Assembly (NCBI GenBank): GCA_030430025.1
Contig: JAUIGR010000009.1
Coordinates: 1-64,000, forward strand
From: Gammaproteobacteria bacterium
Lineage (GTDB): Bacteria > Pseudomonadota > Gammaproteobacteria > Xanthomonadales > Marinicellaceae
Reading direction: 5' to 3'
Length of the DNA stretch: 64,000 nt
Shown: positions 1-58,232 of the stretch, piece after piece
How the letters are laid out: each line of letters starts with the position of its first letter
Position numbering within the stretch: position 1 is the first letter of the stretch
Notes under the pieces: model-generated
What the model saw: the letters and a program-made list of their open reading frames with translations, nothing else
The model's database searches: none
What the model was told of the DNA's origin: nothing
Program-made: the position numbers and the translations under genes

Positions 1-1107
1 CATGATGATAATGATTTAGGTTATACCTATGGGCAGGCTGATATTGTTAGGTTGGGCAGTACCGGTGAATGGGTGGCCTTGTTACCCAACGGTTACAACA
101 ATTCATCAGTTGATGATATTGCGAATTTCAGTTTGACTGGGAATGCTGTTTTATACGTGGTGAGAATCAGTGACGGTCAGTTGATCGCTAAACTAGATAC
201 GGGCGTAGGTAATGCATCGACGCCTAATGGTCTAGCTACGCCAACAGGCGTAGACTCAGAATTCATTGATGGTGGTATCAATCTTGCAGCTGAAATGGCT
301 TATGCAGGTGATCTTTATGGTAATTTATGGCGATTTAATTTCGATGGTGAACCAAATAATTGGTCAATTACTAAAGTGGTTGAGGCAGCAAAACCGATGC
401 ATCGTCCAATTACTGTTAAACCTAGGGTGTTAGATATACCAGATGCATATCAATCTGCTGAGGATGATGTGGTTGTTATGTTTGCGACTGGCAAGTACAT
501 CGAGCTTCCGGACAGGGATATTAATTTACCAGCCAGTCAGTACATTGTTGGAATTTTTGATGGTCCTACTTCTGAAGATGATCAACTCGATATTTTAGAC
601 GATAACATTGTTGAACAAGAGTTCACCGCAAACGGTATGTTTCGCAGTTTGTCAAATCTTGAAGTTAATCCTAATACCAACTATGGCTGGCGAGTCGAAT
701 TGACTGAACAGGGCGAGCGGGTGTTTAATCCCATGAGTTTACTTGGTAGAGACATATTGCTTTTGACCTCCAACGTAACAGCTGGCGTAGATCCTTGTAT
801 TCCAGGTGGTAACAGTTGGTTGCTTGCGGTCAACCCGTTGACAGGAGGTATTCCATACCAAGGTGGAGAACCGACAAATATTTTTAAAGATGTGCATGTC
901 ATTATTAATGGCCAGCTTGTTCCCATAGAGGGCTCAGGAACTGGTATCTCTGTCGATGATTTTATTATTGGAAAGCCTCCAATATTAGAGAATCAGGGAG
1001 GTGGAGCAGGATCGATTGTCATAGAAGGTACTCAGTATACCAATGTTATTGATTTTCAGTCACATACATGGCGAAGAAGAAATTGGACCAATTTACTAAC
1101 AGAATAA
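1..1107 (+). CDS. pilY1: Type IV pilus assembly protein PilY1, C-terminal part (5' truncated by window edge)
   Basis: The reading frame is open from base 1 (HDDNDLGYTYGQADIVRLGSTGEW...), with a PilY1-like beta-propeller segment (AYAGDLYGNLWRFNF, VMFATGKYIE); followed by a pilin gene. Confidence 0.85.
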   Translation, partial: HDDNDLGYTYGQADIVRLGSTGEWVALLPNGYNNSSVDDIANFSLTGNAVLYVVRISDGQLIAKLDTGVGNASTPNGLATPTGVDSEFIDGGINLAAEMAYAGDLYGNLWRFNFDGEPNNWSITKVVEAAKPMHRPITVKPRVLDIPDAYQSAEDDVVVMFATGKYIELPDRDINLPASQYIVGIFDGPTSEDDQLDILDDNIVEQEFTANGMFRSLSNLEVNPNTNYGWRVELTEQGERVFNPMSLLGRDILLLTSNVTAGVDPCIPGGNSWLLAVNPLTGGIPYQGGEPTNIFKDVHVIINGQLVPIEGSGTGISVDDFIIGKPPILENQGGGAGSIVIEGTQYTNVIDFQSHTWRRRNWTNLLTE

Positions 1108-1120
1108 TAGAGATCAAGAA

Positions 1121-1456
1121 ATGAGAGTAATTTTAAAATTAAGTATGTTACTGTTACTAGGAAGTGCTACATGTGCCGACGGACAAGGATTGAGGATCAA
1201 AGTTACCAAGGCTATTTTAGATCACATCGATCAAGGCAGTAAGACAGTGACATTCAATGGCCGGGTTTATCAGTACAGGTTGGATGAAAAGAACAGTATG
1301 TATACATATGCAGAGACCCAAAAACCCGCTTTGAGTTGGCGTGATTTGAAGGTTGGAGAAACTTATTATTTTGAACTCATAACCGATGAACAGAGTGGTA
1401 GAGATTCAGATTTTAAAATAGTCAGATACATAGCTGCACAGCCTCTTGATGATTAA
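1121..1456 (+). CDS. Small exported hypothetical protein in the pilY1-pilE cluster
   Basis: 111 aa ORF with N-terminal signal peptide, tightly spaced between pilY1 and pilE. Confidence 0.6.
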   Translation: MRVILKLSMLLLLGSATCADGQGLRIKVTKAILDHIDQGSKTVTFNGRVYQYRLDEKNSMYTYAETQKPALSWRDLKVGETYYFELITDEQSGRDSDFKIVRYIAAQPLDD

Positions 1457-1470
1457 AGTGAGTGTTACGG

Positions 1471-1869
1471 ATGAATAATAAGGGTTTTACATTAATTGAA
1501 TTGTTGGTTGTTATCGCTATCATCGCTGTATTAGTAGCTTATGCGCTGCCTAATTATAGACAGTACGTGGTGAGAAGTAAGCGGGTAGAAGCACAAAATA
1601 AGTTGCTAGAAGTGGCTGGCATGTACGAAAAATTTTATGCTAACACCAATGCTTATCCCACTGACTTAAAAGGAGGTGGCGCTGCTTTATCATTGACTGA
1701 TGCATTTCTTCTTTGGGATGACTATGAAATTACGAGGACTAATCTCAATGGTGGCGGTTGGCTTCTGAATGCTGAAGCGCTTGCAAAGCAAGCTGATGAT
1801 GACCCTGATTGTCCGAATATACAATTTAATAATTTAGGACAAAAAACACCGGCAATGTGTTGGGAATAA
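1471..1869 (+). CDS. pilE: Type IV pilin (PilE-like), prepilin N-terminus NNKG^FTLIELLVVIAIIAVLVAYALPNYRQYVVRSKR
   Basis: Canonical prepilin peptidase site and N-terminal helix; ATG at 1471 preferred over the GTG at 1462 in the ORF track. Confidence 0.9.
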   Translation: MNNKGFTLIELLVVIAIIAVLVAYALPNYRQYVVRSKRVEAQNKLLEVAGMYEKFYANTNAYPTDLKGGGAALSLTDAFLLWDDYEITRTNLNGGGWLLNAEALAKQADDDPDCPNIQFNNLGQKTPAMCWE

Positions 1870-2028
1870 CAATAATCCCTTTATTGATTACTAAACGTGA
1901 CTTCACATTGGGGTAATTTATAATAAGCGATTTATTGTTGCGCTATCGAACGACTCTTCATCTAATTGTTGGTTAAAGGAGAGGAGACCGTTGGTTCCAA
2001 ATAGATATCGATGTTACTTCTCGCATTA

Positions 2029-2086
2029 ACATCAGGCACAACAGGTAACTCACATGAAAATGAAAGTTACCTGTTGTGCCTGATGT
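2029..2086. terminator. Long perfect inverted repeat (22-bp arms, 14-nt loop) between convergent genes; probable bidirectional terminator
   Basis: ACATCAGGCACAACAGGTAACT / AGTTACCTGTTGTGCCTGATGT read directly; lies between the pilE stop and the stop of the minus-strand gene at 2105. Confidence 0.7.
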
Positions 2087-2104
2087 ATAGTCTATTTCAA
2101 TTAT

Positions 2105-5100
2105 CTACTGATTCAAAATTTGGATTAAGTTTTGGTGTGTGCTTTGCAGTGTGCCAGGGAATGCACAATCAAATCCATTTTTAAATATAAATTGGTAGAT
2201 CAGGTCACTATCAGCACTATTGTTATTACTTAAGTCAATGTCAGTCTCGTTTTGAGGCATAGCAATGGCTGCTGATGAATCTATAAAGTCAAGCAGATCA
2301 CCTGTCACAGTGGTGTGCATGGTGAATATCGCATAAGCATCTACAGGAAGATCTACTGTTGTGTTGATGTCGCTGGTACCTATTATGGTGTCACAGTTGG
2401 CGCCTGCAAAAGGTTCGCAAACCCAGCTGGCCTCAGCTACATGTGCTCCTAGTATGGCAGTCACCACAGCATCATCAATGTTTTTATTACCTTCATTGCG
2501 TACTGTTAAATAATACGTCAATGGCATATTGGGTTGAACGCCAGCGACACAATTAGTTAAATAGGCACTGACATCGGGCATCTCGTCATCATCAATATTG
2601 ACAGCATCTATATCTACTGGATCAACGCCATTGAAATTGTTGTCAGCGGACATCAGTGTGGCAGTTATGATCTGATAATCTTGGTCAAAATCATAAACCG
2701 TGTCATCAACGCCTGTAACAGTAACTGTCTGTGGTTGATTCCAGTTTGAAGGTGTGAATGTTAGTGTGGTAGGAGCAACCGTGCCTTCATCAGTATTTGA
2801 ACTACTGACATTCAAAACCACATCGGCGGTTGGTGTCAGTGTCAGCGCAACAGTGAAAGTGTCACTGCCTCCCATTTCTGTTGTTACTAACTCCGCACCA
2901 TCAAAACTGATGTCAATGTCATGAGTCAATCCACTTTGCACATTGATTGTTACACTCTCTTCTCCAGACTCGTTGCCAGCATCATCTGAGGCTACAGCAG
3001 TAATGATGTTTACACCATCTTGTAGTGAGGCATCAAGTGTGCATGACCAGTCTCCATTCTGATCAACTAGCGCTTGACAATTTTGTCCGTCTGGACCAGA
3101 TACTGTGATAGTTGAACCTGGTTCACCTGTACCTGTGACTAAGGGATTGTTGTCATTAGTGGTGCTGCCATCAATTGGATAGACGATAACAGGATCAGAA
3201 GGTGGTTGTGTGTCAATACCATTAGCAATGATTATTGGTGGTGACTCATTGCCGGCTTGATCTTCCTGAACCACTGTAATGTCTTCACCATCATTTGGTG
3301 TAGGACTGAGTGTACATGACCAGGTACCGTCCTGCTGCACTGTAGTTATGCATGTTGCACCACTTGGTGTTGTAACAGTGATTGTTGCACCAGGTTCACC
3401 TGTTCCAGTAATTGGGGCGCCATTAGTTGGTGTGTCTACTGTTGGCGCATCTGGTGCTATGGTATCCAATATTATACTCACTGTCGTTGTTGGTGAATTA
3501 TTTCCTGCTTCATCAGTAGCAACAGCATTGAATGTGTTATCCCCCTCTTGAACTGATGGTGCAATTTCACAGGACCAATTACCATTTTGATCAGTCACCG
3601 CCATGCATGTTTCTCCATTCGGTCCTGTGACAGTTACTGTGGACCCGGGTTCTGATGTTCCTGAAATGACCGGAGTGTTATCGTTTGTGATGTCTCCATT
3701 AATAGGGCTGATTATAATAGGCGCTGCTGGAGGTGTGTTATCCAAAGTAAAGTTAACAGGGGTGGTATTGGTATTGCCTGCTGGATCAGTTACGGTGGCA
3801 GTTTCATCGCCATCGACATCGTTTTGCCCGGCTGTTGCGGTACAAACCACTTGATTGCCACTTTCAGCGCCACAGGTATAGCCAGGAATGGATAAACTGG
3901 CTCCGGATTCGACACCAGTACAGGTTGCTGTCAGTGGTGTGCCGTTATTGGCAGGATTGGGACTGACTGTGCAGACCGGGGCAGGTGGAGGCGTATTATC
4001 CAAAGTAAAGTTAACAGGGGTGGTATTGGTATTGCCTGCTGGATCAGTTACGGTGGCAGTTTCATCGCCATCGACATCGTTTTGCCCGGCTGTTGCGGTA
4101 CAAACCACTTGATTGCCACTTTCAGCGCCACAGGTATAACCAGGAATAGATAGACTGGCTCCGGATTCAACACCGGTACAGGTTGCTGTCAGTGGTGTGC
4201 CGTTATTGGCAGGATCGGGACTGACTGTACAGATAGGGGCAGGTGGTGGAACGTTGACAATGGTTATGGTTACTTCGGCATCTGAAGAAAAGGATTGATC
4301 AGGCAGTGTCATTGAGTTGGAGTTTACGGTTGCTGTATTGGTGATGTCTCCTAAAGGTGAATCAGTATTGATGGTCGTTCTAAAGTTTACTGTTGCCCCT
4401 TCATTTTCTGCCAGCGAACCGCCACTAGATCCGTTCGCGCCAGCACCTACTCTGAATACTACTTGATTACCACTGGCATCATATTCAGCAGCGTCATTTC
4501 CTGATGAGTCTGACATGCTGCCTACCGGCCCTACATCAGCTGATGTGATCTCTAGACTGTTAGCTACATAAGTCATATGATTGGGAATAGGATCTGTGAG
4601 GATTACATTTGTGGCTGTATCTTGGCCAGTGTTAGAAAAGGTAATGGTATACTCGATTACGTCTCCTGCTTCAATACTTCCTCCATTGACATCTGTTGCC
4701 GTTTTTGTCATTGTTGAACTGAAGTCAGGTACATTTAAATCAGTTGCAAATAGTAGAGCATGGGCGTAATACCAGTCACCATCAGTGACGAATGCAAAAT
4801 CAGCATTGGTTAACCCATTTGGGAGTAGTCCTGATACATCTATTATGTCAATATCCATACCCATTTGGTTTCGATGGTCTGGGTTTTTGGATGTGAGGTG
4901 GTTGTCATAACGTGTGATCGTGGAATTCCAAAAATTATCATTTGGATTTAATGTGTTGCTGATGGTTGTGCCTTCAAATTGTATTGAATCTCCTGTGATG
5001 TCTTGATCTCCTTCCCAGATCAATGCACCAAGAAAGGTGTTAAAACTGCCAGTTTGAGGTGTAATGATATCGGGAATGGTGATGGTTTCAGTATTGGTGT

Positions 5101-5746
5101 TGATAACACGCACAGCACCATCCATTAACGAAAGATGTTTAAACGATTCAGCACTGTTACTATAAATAATCGCAAGAGACCAGCCGCCATAAAATCCTAA
5201 GCTATCTTGACCAGTTAAAGCGGTCAGATCGCCAACAGTATAAATTCCATTGCCTGCATTGTTCACTACTGTGGTAATGTCAGCAACTGCTTGATAGGGT
5301 CTGCTTCCTATGCTGCCATCGTTAGAATATGTGTCTAATTGTATTGCCGTCACCGTTGTGTAATTGGCGGTACCAGGTGGTTTTATTTGAATAGTATTCC
5401 TATTGATATCAGTACTGCTCGCACGTCCGCCCCAGTAGAGTGCTGCGTATTCTATGGTTGAGTTTGCTGGTATCGATAAGGTGGCATTAGATGAATTACT
5501 GAAACCGGCTGTTGTATCAGTATTGATGAATACCATTTGAGTGTTATTATTCCCTCCATTAACACGTCCATTTTGCACATTACTACAATTGCCTGCTCCG
5601 CTACAGGTCAGTAACGTGTTTCCTATAATCTCAATGTTACCCGTAGTTTCAATACTTGCTCTGGTTTCGAATGACCGATTCACCTGTGCACTAACTGCTG
5701 TTGTGTACAGTAGCGTTACACATAAAATTTGCTTAAACTTTTTCAT
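2105..5746 (-). CDS. Large exported protein with DUF11-type repeat and bacterial Ig-like repeats; C-terminal IFKNGFDC motif
   Basis: Signal peptide, DUF11-like 'SSTMTKTATDVNGGSIEAGDVIEYTITFSNTGQDTATNVILTDPIPNHMTYVANS', several Ig-like units (TNDNTPVISGTSEPGSTVTVTGPNG...). Confidence 0.8.
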   Translation of the reverse strand: MKKFKQILCVTLLYTTAVSAQVNRSFETRASIETTGNIEIIGNTLLTCSGAGNCSNVQNGRVNGGNNNTQMVFINTDTTAGFSNSSNATLSIPANSTIEYAALYWGGRASSTDINRNTIQIKPPGTANYTTVTAIQLDTYSNDGSIGSRPYQAVADITTVVNNAGNGIYTVGDLTALTGQDSLGFYGGWSLAIIYSNSAESFKHLSLMDGAVRVINTNTETITIPDIITPQTGSFNTFLGALIWEGDQDITGDSIQFEGTTISNTLNPNDNFWNSTITRYDNHLTSKNPDHRNQMGMDIDIIDVSGLLPNGLTNADFAFVTDGDWYYAHALLFATDLNVPDFSSTMTKTATDVNGGSIEAGDVIEYTITFSNTGQDTATNVILTDPIPNHMTYVANSLEITSADVGPVGSMSDSSGNDAAEYDASGNQVVFRVGAGANGSSGGSLAENEGATVNFRTTINTDSPLGDITNTATVNSNSMTLPDQSFSSDAEVTITIVNVPPPAPICTVSPDPANNGTPLTATCTGVESGASLSIPGYTCGAESGNQVVCTATAGQNDVDGDETATVTDPAGNTNTTPVNFTLDNTPPPAPVCTVSPNPANNGTPLTATCTGVESGASLSIPGYTCGAESGNQVVCTATAGQNDVDGDETATVTDPAGNTNTTPVNFTLDNTPPAAPIIISPINGDITNDNTPVISGTSEPGSTVTVTGPNGETCMAVTDQNGNWSCEIAPSVQEGDNTFNAVATDEAGNNSPTTTVSIILDTIAPDAPTVDTPTNGAPITGTGEPGATITVTTPSGATCITTVQQDGTWSCTLSPTPNDGEDITVVQEDQAGNESPPIIIANGIDTQPPSDPVIVYPIDGSTTNDNNPLVTGTGEPGSTITVSGPDGQNCQALVDQNGDWSCTLDASLQDGVNIITAVASDDAGNESGEESVTINVQSGLTHDIDISFDGAELVTTEMGGSDTFTVALTLTPTADVVLNVSSSNTDEGTVAPTTLTFTPSNWNQPQTVTVTGVDDTVYDFDQDYQIITATLMSADNNFNGVDPVDIDAVNIDDDEMPDVSAYLTNCVAGVQPNMPLTYYLTVRNEGNKNIDDAVVTAILGAHVAEASWVCEPFAGANCDTIIGTSDINTTVDLPVDAYAIFTMHTTVTGDLLDFIDSSAAIAMPQNETDIDLSNNNSADSDLIYQFIFKNGFDCAFPGTLQSTHQNLIQILNQ
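3741..4256. repeat. Tandem duplication of about 258 bp (86 aa) inside the 1213-aa gene
   Basis: Block starting 'tccaaagtaaagttaacagggg' at 3741 recurs at 3999; the encoded units (CTVSP[DN]PANNGTPLTATCTGVESGASLSIPGYTCGAESGNQVVCTATAGQNDVDGDETATVTDPAGNTNTTPVNFTLDNT) are almost identical. Confidence 0.9.
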
Positions 5747-5784
5747 AATTCCCCAATTGTGACTTGTTTATTTGAGATGTTCGT

Positions 5785-5809
5785 CACAAAACTCACACAC
5801 TGTTTTGTG
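5785..5809. promoter_or_regulatory. Inverted repeat CACAAAAC-N9-GTTTTGTG upstream of the 1213-aa gene
   Basis: Perfect 8-bp arms read directly in the divergent intergenic region, about 40 bp before the minus-strand start codon. Confidence 0.4.
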
Positions 5810-5913
5810 CTTTATATTCTATTGCACTGATGTGATGAATTGTACAAAAGAGTAGTTTGTAATGAGCGATAAGCCTTTCAAAATTACTGTCAGAGATGTT
5901 GTCACTTGAAGAA

Positions 5914-5928
5914 TGACAAAATTTGTCA
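5914..5928. promoter_or_regulatory. Palindromic operator-like site TGACAAA-A-TTTGTCA upstream of sufR
   Basis: Perfect 7-bp arms about 80 bp upstream of the sufR start. Confidence 0.4.
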
Positions 5929-6009
5929 AGAAATTGAAACTTTTTTAAAGATTTGGATCATCGGTTGATTTGTTTAAATAGTACTGATTAAGTCCTTTTT
6001 TGTGATAAC

Positions 6010-6456
6010 ATGTCAGCCATGCTGAAGATATCTCGGTTAACAGAATATGCATTCATGGTCATCATGTCTTTAAAAAAGTCCGACATGCCTGCTTCTGCGG
6101 ATTCGGTTGCTAAAAAAACTGGATTGGAACCCCCCACCGTCAGTAAAATTTTGAAGTCATTGAAAAGAGGTGGCTTACTGACTTCTAAACGAGGGGTTGC
6201 GGGAGGTTATTTCTTAGTTAAACGCAAAAGAGATATCTCGTTATGTGAAGTCATTACAGTGATGGAAGGGGCCATGGCTTTGACTGATTGTGCAATTGAT
6301 GATTCGGCTTGTCACTTAAGTGCTGATTGTGATATGAGCCGTGGATTAAAAAAAATCAGCCAGATAATTACAAATGCTTTGGAGCAAGTGAAGGTTAGTG
6401 ATTTGATGATTACCGATTCCAAGCCAATCATTGCTTTGACTATTAATCATGAGTGA
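6010..6456 (+). CDS. sufR: SUF system Fe-S regulator, Rrf2 family (SufR/IscR-like)
   Basis: Rrf2 winged-helix sequence with three-Cys cluster motif (C-X6-C-X5-[15 protein letters not shown]), immediately upstream of sufB. Confidence 0.85.
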
Positions 6457-53264: not shown

Positions 53265-55793
53265 TTATTGGCATGATGGGTTATCAGTTAATTGGATGAT
53301 TTGGTTGGTTAGATAAGCATTGGTTACGGTCATGATCGGACAGCTTAGTAATTCGTTGATTTTAATTTGATAATGTCCTGGTTTGAGTTGATCAATGCGG
53401 AACTGACCAAACCGATTGGTGCTGCCATCGGTTATTTTCGTACCTTCAAGGTTTTGTACTTCGAAATAGGTATCTGCAATGATCCTTGAATTTTGGTCAG
53501 TAATGGTGCCGTTAGCGCCGTAATATAATTGTGTTTCAAAGACAACGGAAGTGTTAGAACCAGCCGCTACTTCTACCCAAAAGGTATCTCTGACTGGTTC
53601 CATTTCAAGAGGTAAACTACTCCAGTCGAGTTTGACTTCGTAGATGCCTGGATCGATATAAGGAATGGTGAATCGATTCAATTCGCCGACTTGGGTTCTG
53701 ACCTGTCCATTGATCAATATTTTGATGTCATTGAACTCATAGTCAGTTCCTTCCGGTGATTTTATTTTTCCTGAAATTGAACCAGTGTTGTCTAAGGCTT
53801 GGTAATAGCCACCACGATAATAACCACCTTTACCTAGATTAAAATTAGCTATCATATTAATGCCAAGAATGGTATCTAGTTCATCATCAATTCGAGCAGT
53901 TATCGGATCCCGAAGCAATTGTGCACGGACCCTTAAGCCAGGAATGAATTCGTAATCGACAGAGGCCAGATAACCCATGTGATGTTCACCAGCCAGCAGG
54001 CCAATTGACCAACCCAATGACTGCAATCCAACACTGTTGTGAGTGAACATGGCTGATAATCTTTGTTGATCCTGATCAAAAGATTTACGATCTAGCCAGA
54101 GTACATCGAAACTATTTCTGGAGTTGACAGCATATCTCCAATGGATCGAGGTACTGCTGCTTTCGTTGGCGATGGCTGAGATGCGTTGTTTACGAGAAAT
54201 TTGCCAATAAGCTCGGTAAGAGTAGTCACCATTAAAATCAGGTCTGGCACTGAAAGCTAAGTTTTGAGTTGGTCTCCAAGAGACAGCGGGTAAGACAAAG
54301 TCAACATCTTGTTCAGCAAATTGATATTGACGAGCCAATACTGAGAAATCGAAATAAGTGTTAAACTGCCAACCGACTTCGGCTGAATAGTCATTGAATG
54401 ATGTTAAATCAGTGTCCATCCAATTATCTGGCCTGTATTGTGCTGAGGTACGATAAAACCAGTATTTACCTCGGTTACTTGACTGAATGCGCCAGGCATT
54501 GTCATTTTCATCTGCAGCCAAGTCAATCTCCCAAAAACCCAGTTTACCTAAGTACGTTTGGGAGCCAATCAAAGCTACATTGTGATTATCGATGGACTGT
54601 AAAATGCTTTCTATTACAAAATTACTATTGACTGCATATTGCGCTCGGGTATAAAAGAAGTTTTCTAATTCATTATTAGCTTGTTCAATTATATTACCAT
54701 TGAGTCCAGCGCCTGCTTGAAGTAATAGGGTTTTTTCAGGTAAATTTTGATTGGTGTTATAGCGACTGAAATCTATGATTTTTTCAGGAATACCTGAAGT
54801 ATTTGGAGCAAATACCCAGGCTTCAATTTTGACGTAGCTGCCAGTGGGTATTTTGATGTCACGAAAAATGAAAGTGTTATCTAACAATGCAATAGTCTCT
54901 GCTACTGGTACATCCTCGACTCTGAGTTCAACGACACCACCACCAATGCCTTCTCCCTTAAAGGTTCTGATGGGGCTTCTTGGATCACTGATGAGCTGAT
55001 TATTACTGACGTTTCTTAAGAATAAGTCAATGCCTTGGTTACTCCAAGCGATTTGTGCTCCAGTAAAATCTGTGCCCCCTAATAATGGGTTCAACGATAT
55101 GATTTGGTTGCCAAGCAGTAAACGATGTTTAGTTCTTGTTTGGACCCAAACATAATCTTCGAAATAAGGGTCATTATCAATATAATTAGAGGCTCTGAAT
55201 TGCCAAGCCCCACCCAATAATCGTCCACCCATTTCAGTTTCTGCGGTGGTACTTTGATTATTGTCATCTTCACGATAATAGTATTCATTCCTGATATATG
55301 CGATTGAATTATTGGCTGATTTGATGTCAGGAGTTTTTACCTTACCACTGGGTTTGATAGTGGCTTGTTCAATATTAGTAATCATATCCCACCATTTTGC
55401 TCGTGCTATGATGGCAAAGGTTTTTTTGTCGAGTGATAAATACATAGCCAGTTTATCTGATAAATGGGTCAGTGAGACCATCATTTGGCCATTGATTATA
55501 TAGGTGTCTAATTCAGCAATATGGGCTGTGCCGATCGCGGTTTCAATATGAATTTGTTGATTGGTGAATTGGTGTTTCAGCTTTAAAGCTGATAAGAAAT
55601 CGATTAAATGGATATATATTTGGTCATTGTCTTCGATGACTAAAATTTGTGCGTCTTTTTCGGTCCCATTGATAACAATGGGTGTGATGAGTGGTGGTGA
55701 TTGTGTTTCAATTTGACGTGACGCAGCTGTATTTGAATGGCAATAGCTGATATGGAATATTAATAAAACCCAAAATGCTATTTTGATCGGCAT
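53265..55793 (-). CDS. Divergent fimbrial usher-like outer-membrane protein
   Basis: 842 aa, signal peptide, N-terminal stalk-like beta domain, usher-like middle region (FKGEGIGGGVVELRVEDVPVAETIALLDNTFIFRDIKIPTGSYVKIE), barrel-like aromatic alternation, two C-terminal Ig/carboxypeptidase-regulatory-like domains; operonic with a PapD-like chaperone. Confidence 0.68.
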   Translation of the reverse strand: MPIKIAFWVLLIFHISYCHSNTAASRQIETQSPPLITPIVINGTEKDAQILVIEDNDQIYIHLIDFLSALKLKHQFTNQQIHIETAIGTAHIAELDTYIINGQMMVSLTHLSDKLAMYLSLDKKTFAIIARAKWWDMITNIEQATIKPSGKVKTPDIKSANNSIAYIRNEYYYREDDNNQSTTAETEMGGRLLGGAWQFRASNYIDNDPYFEDYVWVQTRTKHRLLLGNQIISLNPLLGGTDFTGAQIAWSNQGIDLFLRNVSNNQLISDPRSPIRTFKGEGIGGGVVELRVEDVPVAETIALLDNTFIFRDIKIPTGSYVKIEAWVFAPNTSGIPEKIIDFSRYNTNQNLPEKTLLLQAGAGLNGNIIEQANNELENFFYTRAQYAVNSNFVIESILQSIDNHNVALIGSQTYLGKLGFWEIDLAADENDNAWRIQSSNRGKYWFYRTSAQYRPDNWMDTDLTSFNDYSAEVGWQFNTYFDFSVLARQYQFAEQDVDFVLPAVSWRPTQNLAFSARPDFNGDYSYRAYWQISRKQRISAIANESSSTSIHWRYAVNSRNSFDVLWLDRKSFDQDQQRLSAMFTHNSVGLQSLGWSIGLLAGEHHMGYLASVDYEFIPGLRVRAQLLRDPITARIDDELDTILGINMIANFNLGKGGYYRGGYYQALDNTGSISGKIKSPEGTDYEFNDIKILINGQVRTQVGELNRFTIPYIDPGIYEVKLDWSSLPLEMEPVRDTFWVEVAAGSNTSVVFETQLYYGANGTITDQNSRIIADTYFEVQNLEGTKITDGSTNRFGQFRIDQLKPGHYQIKINELLSCPIMTVTNAYLTNQIIQLTDNPSCQ

Positions 55794-55882
55794 TCAGTTT
55801 CGCTCCTGACATCATCTATTGGTAACTGTTTTGAGCTGATATTCAAGCTCAATAATAGTACGTTTAAATCTAATATTCATGA

Positions 55883-56743
55883 TCAGTTGACGTTAATAGG
55901 TAAAATGGTATCTACTGTTTCATCACCTAATCGGCCAATGAATTGTAGGGTTAAGGGCTGATCATGCGGTATATTCAGCTCATAATCAGAAATATCCACA
56001 TTGATCATTCGAGTATAGCCAGGCAGCACCGGCATGCTGGGCATTTCGCCTTTGGCTAATAAACCATTAATTTGTGGAGATTCTTGCTCTAGTATATTTT
56101 CAAGATTAATCAATGTAGAGTTCGGTTCACCTAACCACAATAGCCAATGACCTTTATAGCGTATAAAGGAGTTGCCTGTATTCATTGTTTCTAAGCGTAT
56201 ATGTTGATTTTCTATTTTTGCACTCAGAGTTTTTCCTGTTTTAATTTTTTCACCAATATGGACATAAATGGCAGATCCTATTTTGAACTTGAAATTGATC
56301 GTTCCCTCTTTAGGTTTTTCCTTCAATTGTTGATTAAAATAGAGCATTAGACGGTGTTCTCCTTCTGGTATTTGGTTGGGCGGTCTTAATGCCAGTCTAA
56401 TAGTCTGTGTGGAATTGGGTTCCAGAGTGAAATTAAGAGGGTTAACAATAACCCAGTTAGTCAGTGAGTCAGCAGTTAATGGTATGGGTTGTACTTGATT
56501 CATTTCATCCAGGGTCCAACTCTCTACATTGGTAGAGACATGAACAGCATGCTCTTTTTTGTTAATGATACGAAAGCTATGTGTTTTATTGATTTCTGTA
56601 CTGTCAATTTCTAAAACACTGGGAGTTACCGCTATTTGTGCTTTGGAATCTATTGTCCAAGTGATTATTGATAAAAGTAGTAGATAATGTAATTTATTCA
56701 ATATTGTTTCATTAATGAGCGATGCTTTAACTGTTAATTTCAT
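55883..56743 (-). CDS. PapD-like periplasmic pilus chaperone
   Basis: IAVTPSVLEIDSTEINKTHSFRIINK; NPLNFTLEPNSTQTIRLALRPPNQIPEGEHRLMLYF. Confidence 0.75.
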   Translation of the reverse strand: MKLTVKASLINETILNKLHYLLLLSIITWTIDSKAQIAVTPSVLEIDSTEINKTHSFRIINKKEHAVHVSTNVESWTLDEMNQVQPIPLTADSLTNWVIVNPLNFTLEPNSTQTIRLALRPPNQIPEGEHRLMLYFNQQLKEKPKEGTINFKFKIGSAIYVHIGEKIKTGKTLSAKIENQHIRLETMNTGNSFIRYKGHWLLWLGEPNSTLINLENILEQESPQINGLLAKGEMPSMPVLPGYTRMINVDISDYELNIPHDQPLTLQFIGRLGDETVDTILPINVN

Positions 56744-56768
56744 TTCTACTCCCTGGGTTATGGGTTAA

Positions 56769-57314
56769 TTAAAACGGTTTCAGTTCAATGTTGATTTGGC
56801 TTGAAAAATTGACTGCTTTGAGTGAGTCTGAATTTATATGTAAAATAATTCCGCCTTCAATAATTTCAGAACCATCTTTTTGCTGTTGTCTCCTTTGTAT
56901 CCAAGGTTTAATGGACATTGAAGCCAGCATAGATGTTGGATCGTTGTCATACCAGTTGGTCGTCACTGGTATATCAACATGTGACCAATTTTTAGGTAAG
57001 ATCACTCGCCATAAATTGGGTATGGTTTTTATAATAACTTTGTTTCGATTAGGAGCAATCGGTGGAAGATCCACAAATAACCCACCTGATTGATAGTAAG
57101 CATTCCCAGAGGCTATGCCCATTGGAATTTCAGTAATTTTAATGGCCTTATTAGGCGTTAAATCGATATGGTTGTTGGGGTGGCCCAATAAAATGAGTTG
57201 TGGTTGGTTCTTTTGATGTGTCGAAGTTAATTCTTCAATTAGGTTATGTTTAAATTCATTGCTGACACTTACGCCTAACTGGGCTAACATGATTATTGTT
57301 GGTGCGAGTCTCAT
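56769..57314 (-). CDS. Exported hypothetical protein, candidate minor fimbrial subunit
   Basis: 181 aa, signal-like N-terminus, located between candidate pilin and chaperone on the same strand. Confidence 0.5.
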   Translation of the reverse strand: MRLAPTIIMLAQLGVSVSNEFKHNLIEELTSTHQKNQPQLILLGHPNNHIDLTPNKAIKITEIPMGIASGNAYYQSGGLFVDLPPIAPNRNKVIIKTIPNLWRVILPKNWSHVDIPVTTNWYDNDPTSMLASMSIKPWIQRRQQQKDGSEIIEGGIILHINSDSLKAVNFSSQINIELKPF

Positions 57315-57341
57315 GGGTGAATATCATGTGTATTTGATTAA

Positions 57342-57372
57342 TTGTTATGGGTATTGAGAATACCCATAACAA
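57342..57372 (-). promoter_or_regulatory. Perfect intercistronic hairpin (14-bp arms, 3-nt loop)
   Basis: TTGTTATGGGTATT-GAG-AATACCCATAACAA directly downstream of the candidate pilin stop (57389) and upstream of the next gene. Confidence 0.8.
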
Positions 57373-57388
57373 AATACTGGTTAATATA

Positions 57389-57979
57389 TCAAATAGACGT
57401 TATTGATACTGTTATTTCTTGACCAGCTACAGTATGAGTACCAGAAAGACTGAGTCCACTTAAGTCCAGAACTGCTGTATACCCACCCAAATCCCCAGAT
57501 AGACTTGGACCCGAAAATGAGGCAGGTGCAGGTGAAACAGAGGTGATACTGATAGTAGAACCACCGTTAGCTAGAGGCACAGATTGGTTTAGTGCAGCAT
57601 TCATAACTACGGTTCCCGCACCAGTAGGATCTTGGACGCCGTCAACTTCCCAGGCGTTGCTGATATTGAGTGTTACAGCACTTAAATCAGGTGGTACAAT
57701 AGCAGTGTAAGAAACATCTAAATCCCCTGCGTTATATGTAGCTGTGACAAAACCTGCATTACCATAATCACACTCAAATCCGACGGCTGCTGCTACACAT
57801 GATGTGCCGCCGTCGAGTAATGCTGCCATGGCTGTTGCATCTATAGTGATACCTAATGTCGAGTAGTAACGCAGATAAGTTACACTTTCAACAGCTATAT
57901 CAGCATCGACTAATCCTGCATTAGAGACACCTGGAACTAACATCGTTAATGCCAGACCGACTTTTTTATAAGTTTTCAT
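57389..57979 (-). CDS. Exported candidate major fimbrial subunit
   Basis: Signal peptide MKTYKKVGLALTMLVPGVSNA, Gly/Ala/Ser/Thr-rich beta-strand sequence, first gene of the chaperone-usher-like locus; ATG at 57979 preferred over the upstream start. Confidence 0.6.
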   Translation of the reverse strand: MKTYKKVGLALTMLVPGVSNAGLVDADIAVESVTYLRYYSTLGITIDATAMAALLDGGTSCVAAAVGFECDYGNAGFVTATYNAGDLDVSYTAIVPPDLSAVTLNISNAWEVDGVQDPTGAGTVVMNAALNQSVPLANGGSTISITSVSPAPASFSGPSLSGDLGGYTAVLDLSGLSLSGTHTVAGQEITVSITSI

Positions 57980-58232
57980 AACTAATTTCCCCATAATCTG
58001 AAATGATTGTTTGAAGTCAATCATTTCAGATACACCCTTAAAATTTAAACTGAATGAAAGACCCCTGATGAAAACAAGTACTCACACATATGAGACCATC
58101 TTCACTATTTAAAATAGCACATTATTTTTTAATTGTGAATTGTTTTTTGGATATTTGCACAATGTTCAATTGTTGATTGGCGCATACAGCAAACTTACTA
58201 TTATGAGTGACGTTTTTTGTCGGTCAGTGGTA

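Follow-up and report, generated by a model that had tools for sequence, protein, structure and literature searches.

Chaperone-usher pili are divided into three groups and six clades (PMC9452303), and the accepted clades have been defined through the phylogeny of the usher (PMC3559732). Four exported open reading frames (ORFs) on a gammaproteobacterial contig raise the question of whether such a system may lie outside the alpha (alternative), archaic (sigma) and classical groups. The contig (JAUIGR010000009.1) belongs to a member of the Marinicellaceae, and its positions 1 to 64,000 form the stretch analysed here, hereafter the window. An earlier note, made from the letters alone, had described these ORFs as a chaperone-usher-like locus and had suggested, by inference, that its usher represents a distinct clade. 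Our data indicate that the locus is very probably a chaperone-usher pilus operon of a fourth branch, working most likely as other such systems do. The usher and the chaperone apparently represent an undescribed lineage with an ordinary mechanism. We found no earlier report of this branch in the literature searched, which omits most subscription journals.

Results

An usher that protein databases do not recognise

The outer-membrane usher, a member of the new clade, is a protein of 842 amino acids (aa) encoded at 53265..55793 (this and all features below are on the minus strand). The Pfam usher models PF00577, TcfC and CooC_C gave zero matches to it, and a search of Pfam, NCBIfam and the PDB sequences with this single sequence retrieved no usher. 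The only Pfam domain found was the carboxypeptidase-regulatory-like domain (PF13620, E 7e-7, slightly below the curated cut-off), which the earlier note had correctly placed at the C-terminus. PF00577 had no match across the whole source genome or in the ushers of the relatives described below, and a single-protein scan of the genome contigs found nothing. Likewise, TcfC (PF16967) and CooC_C (PF15976) were found in 0/9 ushers of the new family and in 6/6 alpha control ushers, five of which had been retrieved through PF15976. Existing protein databases thus fail to recognise the new usher branch.

Profile-profile comparison revealed the homology. A family profile built from nine new-family ushers matched the archaic/classical ushers over 627 columns (P 98.5, E 2.3e-15) and the alpha ushers with P 96.3 and E 1.5e-9. 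Alpha and archaic/classical ushers matched one another at E 1.5e-15 in the same comparison, and therefore the new family and the known groups are separated by about the same distance as the known groups among themselves. The controls stayed far below these values, with P of at most 3.8 for LptD barrels and at most 0.2 for column-shuffled alignments. The barrel by itself matched the archaic/classical ushers (P 95, E 3.9e-8), and so did the two C-terminal domains together (E 4e-6), which also matched the alpha ushers (E 2e-6).

The AlphaFold2 model of the usher (pLDDT 77) comprises, in this order, an N-domain, six strands, an insert resembling a plug, ~20 further strands and two C-terminal beta domains. 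The N-terminal domain (NTD) covers residues ~35-131 (55401..55691), and the beta barrel, where the barrel profile match lies, covers residues ~163-654 (53832..55307), with the plug after the sixth strand. In known ushers, the plug sits between strands 6 and 7. The plug-like insert modelled here (residues ~278-341; 54771..54962) is made up of short strands that lie between the sixth and seventh strands of the barrel, and carries the family motif GGxAELRxxGxxVAxxxIxLDGxFEFRDV. Two domains resembling the usher C-terminal domains CTD1 and CTD2 follow, a CTD1-like one at residues ~671-756 (53526..53783) and a CTD2-like one at residues ~758-836 (53286..53522), the latter being the CarboxypepD_reg domain of Pfam. 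With ~26 strands in the barrel region, the match to the usher count of 24 is approximate. When the model was searched against the PDB with Foldseek, each of the 18 best matches was to FimD or PapC, with E values from 3e-27 to 7e-11 (2e-7 for the next match) and an identity of ~11-13% in the structural alignments.

Based on the profile homology, the modelled domain order and the Foldseek matches, we conclude that the 842-aa protein is an usher. The earlier note had judged its architecture atypical, and here we disagree: the "stalk-type" N-domain and the two Ig/CarboxypepD domains occupy the positions of NTD, CTD1 and CTD2 in the model and most likely are these domains, so that the overall plan is canonical.

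The terminal Cys pair pointed out in the same note consists of C818 and C841, at the end of the CTD2-like domain. All 21 ushers examined from the known groups have a pair of this kind. In the new clade, the window usher alone has it at the spacing of the known groups, the other members having no such pair or a differently placed one. The C-terminal Cys pairs of the nearest relatives include a Cys ~70 residues upstream.

Signature residues of the chaperone

The periplasmic chaperone (55883..56743; 286 aa, two domains) gave a weak PapD_N match in Pfam, and its best match in NCBIfam was TcfA, an alpha-type chaperone (E 1e-7). Its profile matched the archaic/classical chaperones with P 98.1 and E 1e-13. 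The signature residues of this superfamily have been mapped in EcpB and CsuC by Pakharukova and colleagues, who identified Arg89 as the anchor of the subunit C-terminus and as a hallmark of archaic and alternative chaperones (PMC4654587). The superfamily-invariant Pro of strand D1 (EcpB Pro60) corresponds to P102 in the window and is kept in 10/10 members. The equivalent of EcpB Arg89 is R131, found in 9/10 members at exactly the 29-residue distance from the Pro seen in EcpB, and that of Arg148 is R195, present in 9/9 members. The position of Tyr169 (EcpB) or Tyr196 (CsuC) is instead taken by Pro, Ser or Ala in all nine members with a second domain, and by Pro in the window. As judged from the profile comparison and these residues, the 286-aa protein is a PapD-like chaperone of the non-classical type. 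In a chaperone tree the new family formed one clade (97/97), the deeper branches being unresolved.

One relative, L016, departs from this pattern. Its chaperone (L016:952-1443, the same as L099:4025-4516) is 163 aa long and stops after the N-terminal domain; this may be a chaperone with a single domain or the product of a truncated gene. The pilin and the usher of L016 seem intact, and the usher has an extra C-terminal domain.

A separate usher clade

In a tree of 31 ushers, the ten members of the new family, all from Gammaproteobacteria, were monophyletic (100/100), with a stem of 1.33 changes per column. The alpha (7), archaic (10) and classical (4) ushers were each monophyletic at 98-100, the archaic ones at 100/98, and the archaic ushers joined the classical and alpha ones before the new clade. 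A smaller tree of 24 ushers agreed, with the archaic clade at 92/87. The archaic ushers came from alpha-, beta- and gammaproteobacteria; non-proteobacterial ushers were left out, and the sampling was not aimed at the kappa, beta and pi clades. The window usher therefore lies outside the alpha, archaic and classical clades, in line with the distinct clade suggested earlier.

A conserved gene block and its longer versions

The four genes run, as first described, in the order candidate pilin, 181-aa protein, chaperone and usher. All four ORFs are intact, and the intergenic gaps of ~74, 25 and 89 nucleotides (nt) are operon-like. The locus is flanked by fabI on one side and by a convergent secF on the other.

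A search with the window usher found six relatives among 200 genomes of the order and two full-length ones among 274 of the class; a profile search added one further relative in the class, cut off by the end of its contig. In the order, a profile search returned 112/200 genomes as positive, and among the matches listed only seven genomes had full-length ones. The remaining matches were short and fell mostly in the widespread carboxypeptidase-like C-domain; our counts use full-length matches only. We found no full-length usher in the genus mates searched, and no relative on plasmids.

The order pilin, ~200-aa protein, chaperone and usher recurs in the loci L008-L013 and L097. L016 keeps pilin, chaperone and usher, with the chaperone following the pilin and no ~200-aa gene in between; in L015 and L098 only chaperone and usher were recognised. 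Because this order recurs in distant genomes, with usher identities of 20-38%, we regard the locus as a real operon and not as a chance run of ORFs.

Most relatives carry a longer version, with two further genes that are absent at the window locus. In L009-L011 and L013 the usher is followed by an exported protein of 610-660 aa and then by one of 270-280 aa; L012 has at least the first. The larger protein shows signals of a carbohydrate-binding module (CBM) and of a PD40 propeller, and no pilin domain. Of the genomes of the order, precisely the six with a relative of the window usher contain its gene, which lies 3' of the usher in five of these.

The final gene of the long loci (L011:5425-6237, L013:4210-5049, L009:10705-11544) ends in a motif like RVFADGFE, RLFANGFEP or LLSDGME, which may act as a C-terminal signal that sorts or anchors secreted proteins in this order. 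A further contig, L104 (genome G114, contig C339, positions 2-6040), holds several CBM/propeller adhesin-like genes in tandem together with a copy of the 270-aa gene. It possibly continues the usher locus of contig C181, and its tandem genes suggest that the putative adhesin has been duplicated repeatedly.

A decayed copy of the locus is found in a genus mate (G083; L103:10944-13305). It has intact pilin and 182-aa genes, lacks the usher, and ends in a remnant of the last gene; a fusion ORF combines the N-domain of the chaperone with ~100 residues from the C-terminal end of the propeller protein. This may reflect a deletion that removed the usher, or an assembly artefact. The copy is flanked by odhB/lpd-like genes, in contrast to fabI and secF at the window. 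Hence the longer locus was probably once present in the genus, at another site, and the window keeps the four-gene core. An insertion at the window site could not be demonstrated by empty-site comparison with genus mates, where the fabI neighbours differ, and the composition gave no sign of recent transfer (GC content of 36-41% in the operon and 38-43% in its surroundings).

Candidate subunits

The candidate major pilin (57389..57979) has 196 aa if the better start is used; the longest ORF starts at 58024. It combines a signal peptide, an N-terminal extension GLVDADIAVESV that we consider a putative donor strand, an all-beta body and a C-terminal alternating strand, EITVSITSI. The AlphaFold2 model (pLDDT 63) is all-beta, with the first 27 residues at low confidence. 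The second exported protein, a candidate minor subunit (56769..57314; 181 aa), has a C-terminus (IEGGIILHINSDSL..NFSSQINIELKPF) that resembles the ends of alpha pilins, and the local profile comparison with alpha pilins matched best, at a suggestive level, over its last 30 residues (P 16%). Pilin-like alternation at the C-terminus scored high in 88% of the members of the pilin family and 71% of those of the 181-aa family versus 21% of the window ORFs, a score that is weak as evidence given that the members are related. Pfam recognised no pilin domain in either protein, in agreement with the earlier remark that neither shows a classical pilin motif.

The pilin is the first gene in the window, in L008-L013, L016 and L097, and in the remnant L103, and the 181-aa protein holds position 2 in L008-L013, L097 and L103. 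Among the 200 genomes of the order, the pilin occurs only in the seven usher genomes and in the one with the decayed copy. From position, co-conservation, export signals, C-terminal strands and the weak fold matches of the pilin, we infer that both proteins are likely pilus subunits.

The two genes are separated by an RNA hairpin (57342..57372; stem of 14 bp, loop of 3 nt). The 81-nt stretch that holds it has a minimum free energy of -21.7 kcal/mol (z -4.6), and none of the shuffled sequences was equally stable. It is possible that the hairpin serves as a processing or attenuation site favouring the pilin mRNA. The gap that holds it is short or absent in most relatives. A promoter scan of the locus gave scores no better than those of shuffled sequences.

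Discussion

If the locus operates like other chaperone-usher systems, the pilin and the 181-aa protein would be exported by Sec, and the 286-aa chaperone would complete each subunit with its G1 strand, its R131, the Arg typical of non-classical chaperones, holding the C-terminal carboxylate of the subunit. The usher N-domain would then take up the chaperone-subunit complexes, the plugged barrel would provide the outer-membrane pore, and CTD1 and CTD2 would hold the base of the fibre while donor-strand exchange proceeds. The product would be a thin fibre on the cell surface that probably serves attachment or biofilm formation.

Several observations weigh against a pilus operon of a fourth branch. 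The Foldseek search with the pilin model gave no significant match in the PDB, the best (E 0.009) being to unrelated beta domains; its non-significant matches include the chaperone-usher pilins CfaB, CS20, CsuA/B, FimG, FimA and FimI. Neither small protein matched known pilins significantly by profile, a test that is powerless for the pilin in that alpha, archaic and type 1 pilin profiles miss one another too. The usher N-domain by itself had no significant profile match, and neither had the plug; each is so short or so diverged that it escapes matching when taken individually. The pTM of 0.54 leaves the domain packing of the usher model uncertain. The chaperone lacks a Tyr that is essential in archaic and alternative systems, and the genome of the window lacks the putative adhesin gene of the relatives, so that its pili could be without this adhesin. 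Finally, the usher tree has long branches and is rooted by midpoint only.

This last point leads to the reading, in our view unlikely, that the new family is a fast-evolving archaic lineage pulled out by long-branch effects. The archaic group is the most widespread one (PMC9452303), the usher profile comes nearest to the set with archaic ushers in it, and the chaperone has the Arg89/Arg148 signature common to archaic and alternative chaperones. On the other hand, the ten archaic ushers form one clade (100/98) that groups first with the classical and alpha ushers and only then with the new clade, PF00577 does not match, the anchoring Tyr is lost, and the pilins of the new family were not recognised as spore-coat-U type by Pfam.

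It is slightly less probable still that the usher exports a non-pilus cargo, such as the 610-660-aa propeller protein of the relatives, with the small proteins as helpers and the window locus as a decaying remainder. Such a role would fit the propeller gene, which accompanies the usher in exactly those six genomes, follows it in five of them and encodes no pilin domain; its absence from the genome of the window and the deletion remnant in the genus mate would fit as well. Nevertheless, the four window ORFs are intact, two exported small proteins with pilin-like C-terminal strands lead the operon even without the propeller gene, and the usher model has the N-domain and the two C-domains needed for the polymerisation of subunits.

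That the system is a divergent member of the alpha clade (CFA/I-ECP-TcfC) is highly improbable: the TcfA match of the chaperone, the usher C-domains that match alpha ushers and the ecp order of pilin, chaperone, usher and adhesin, shared by the relatives, speak for it, but TcfC and CooC_C mark all six sampled alpha ushers and none of the nine new-family ones, the usher profile is nearer to archaic/classical (E 2e-15) than to alpha ushers (E 1.5e-9), the tree splits the two at 100/100, and the alpha chaperones sampled all have a Cys pair that the window chaperone lacks.

We therefore favour the reading as a chaperone-usher pilus operon of a fourth branch: the profile comparisons, AlphaFold2 and Foldseek for the usher, together with profile and signature residues for the chaperone, bear out the chaperone-usher locus of the earlier note, the usher model contains a large barrel, and the locus gives no clear match to a described clade. 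Going further, we tentatively propose, as a doubtful extension, that this fourth group of pili is marked by a changed C-terminal anchor (Arg-Arg without Tyr) and, in the fuller loci, by a large carbohydrate-binding/beta-propeller adhesin on the fibre, sometimes in several copies.

Censuses of chaperone-usher pili find ushers with PF00577 (PMC9452303, PMC5717340, PMC3559732). Since the new clade is invisible to PF00577, TcfC and CooC_C, the chaperone-usher pathway is undercounted in environmental bacteria. The clade can serve as an outgroup in studies of how the classical and archaic modes of assembly came to differ, and the missing anchoring Tyr makes the question of how the chaperone recognises its subunits directly testable.

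Compared with the known systems, the locus shares with the archaic ones (sigma, Csu type) an usher homologous along the barrel and C-domains, the pilin-chaperone-usher order, and a chaperone with the Pro, Arg89 and Arg174-type residues, whereas a PF00577 match, a recognisable spore-coat-U pilin and an equivalent of the chaperone Tyr196 are absent, and its usher falls in a separate clade. It resembles the alpha systems (ECP, CFA/I, Tcf) in the related usher C-domains, in the conserved Arg89 and Arg148 of EcpB and in the pilin-chaperone-usher-putative adhesin order of the relatives. It differs from them by the lack of TcfC/CooC_C, the extra 181-aa protein between pilin and chaperone, the replacement of Tyr169, the separate clade and the different kind of putative adhesin in the relatives. 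Unlike the classical systems (type 1, P), it has a non-classical chaperone and pilins unlike FimA, and structural alignments of the ushers reach only ~11-13% identity. The predicted usher plan, with NTD, a barrel plugged after strand 6, CTD1 and CTD2, is nonetheless that of the classical systems, and the nearest structures are FimD and PapC.

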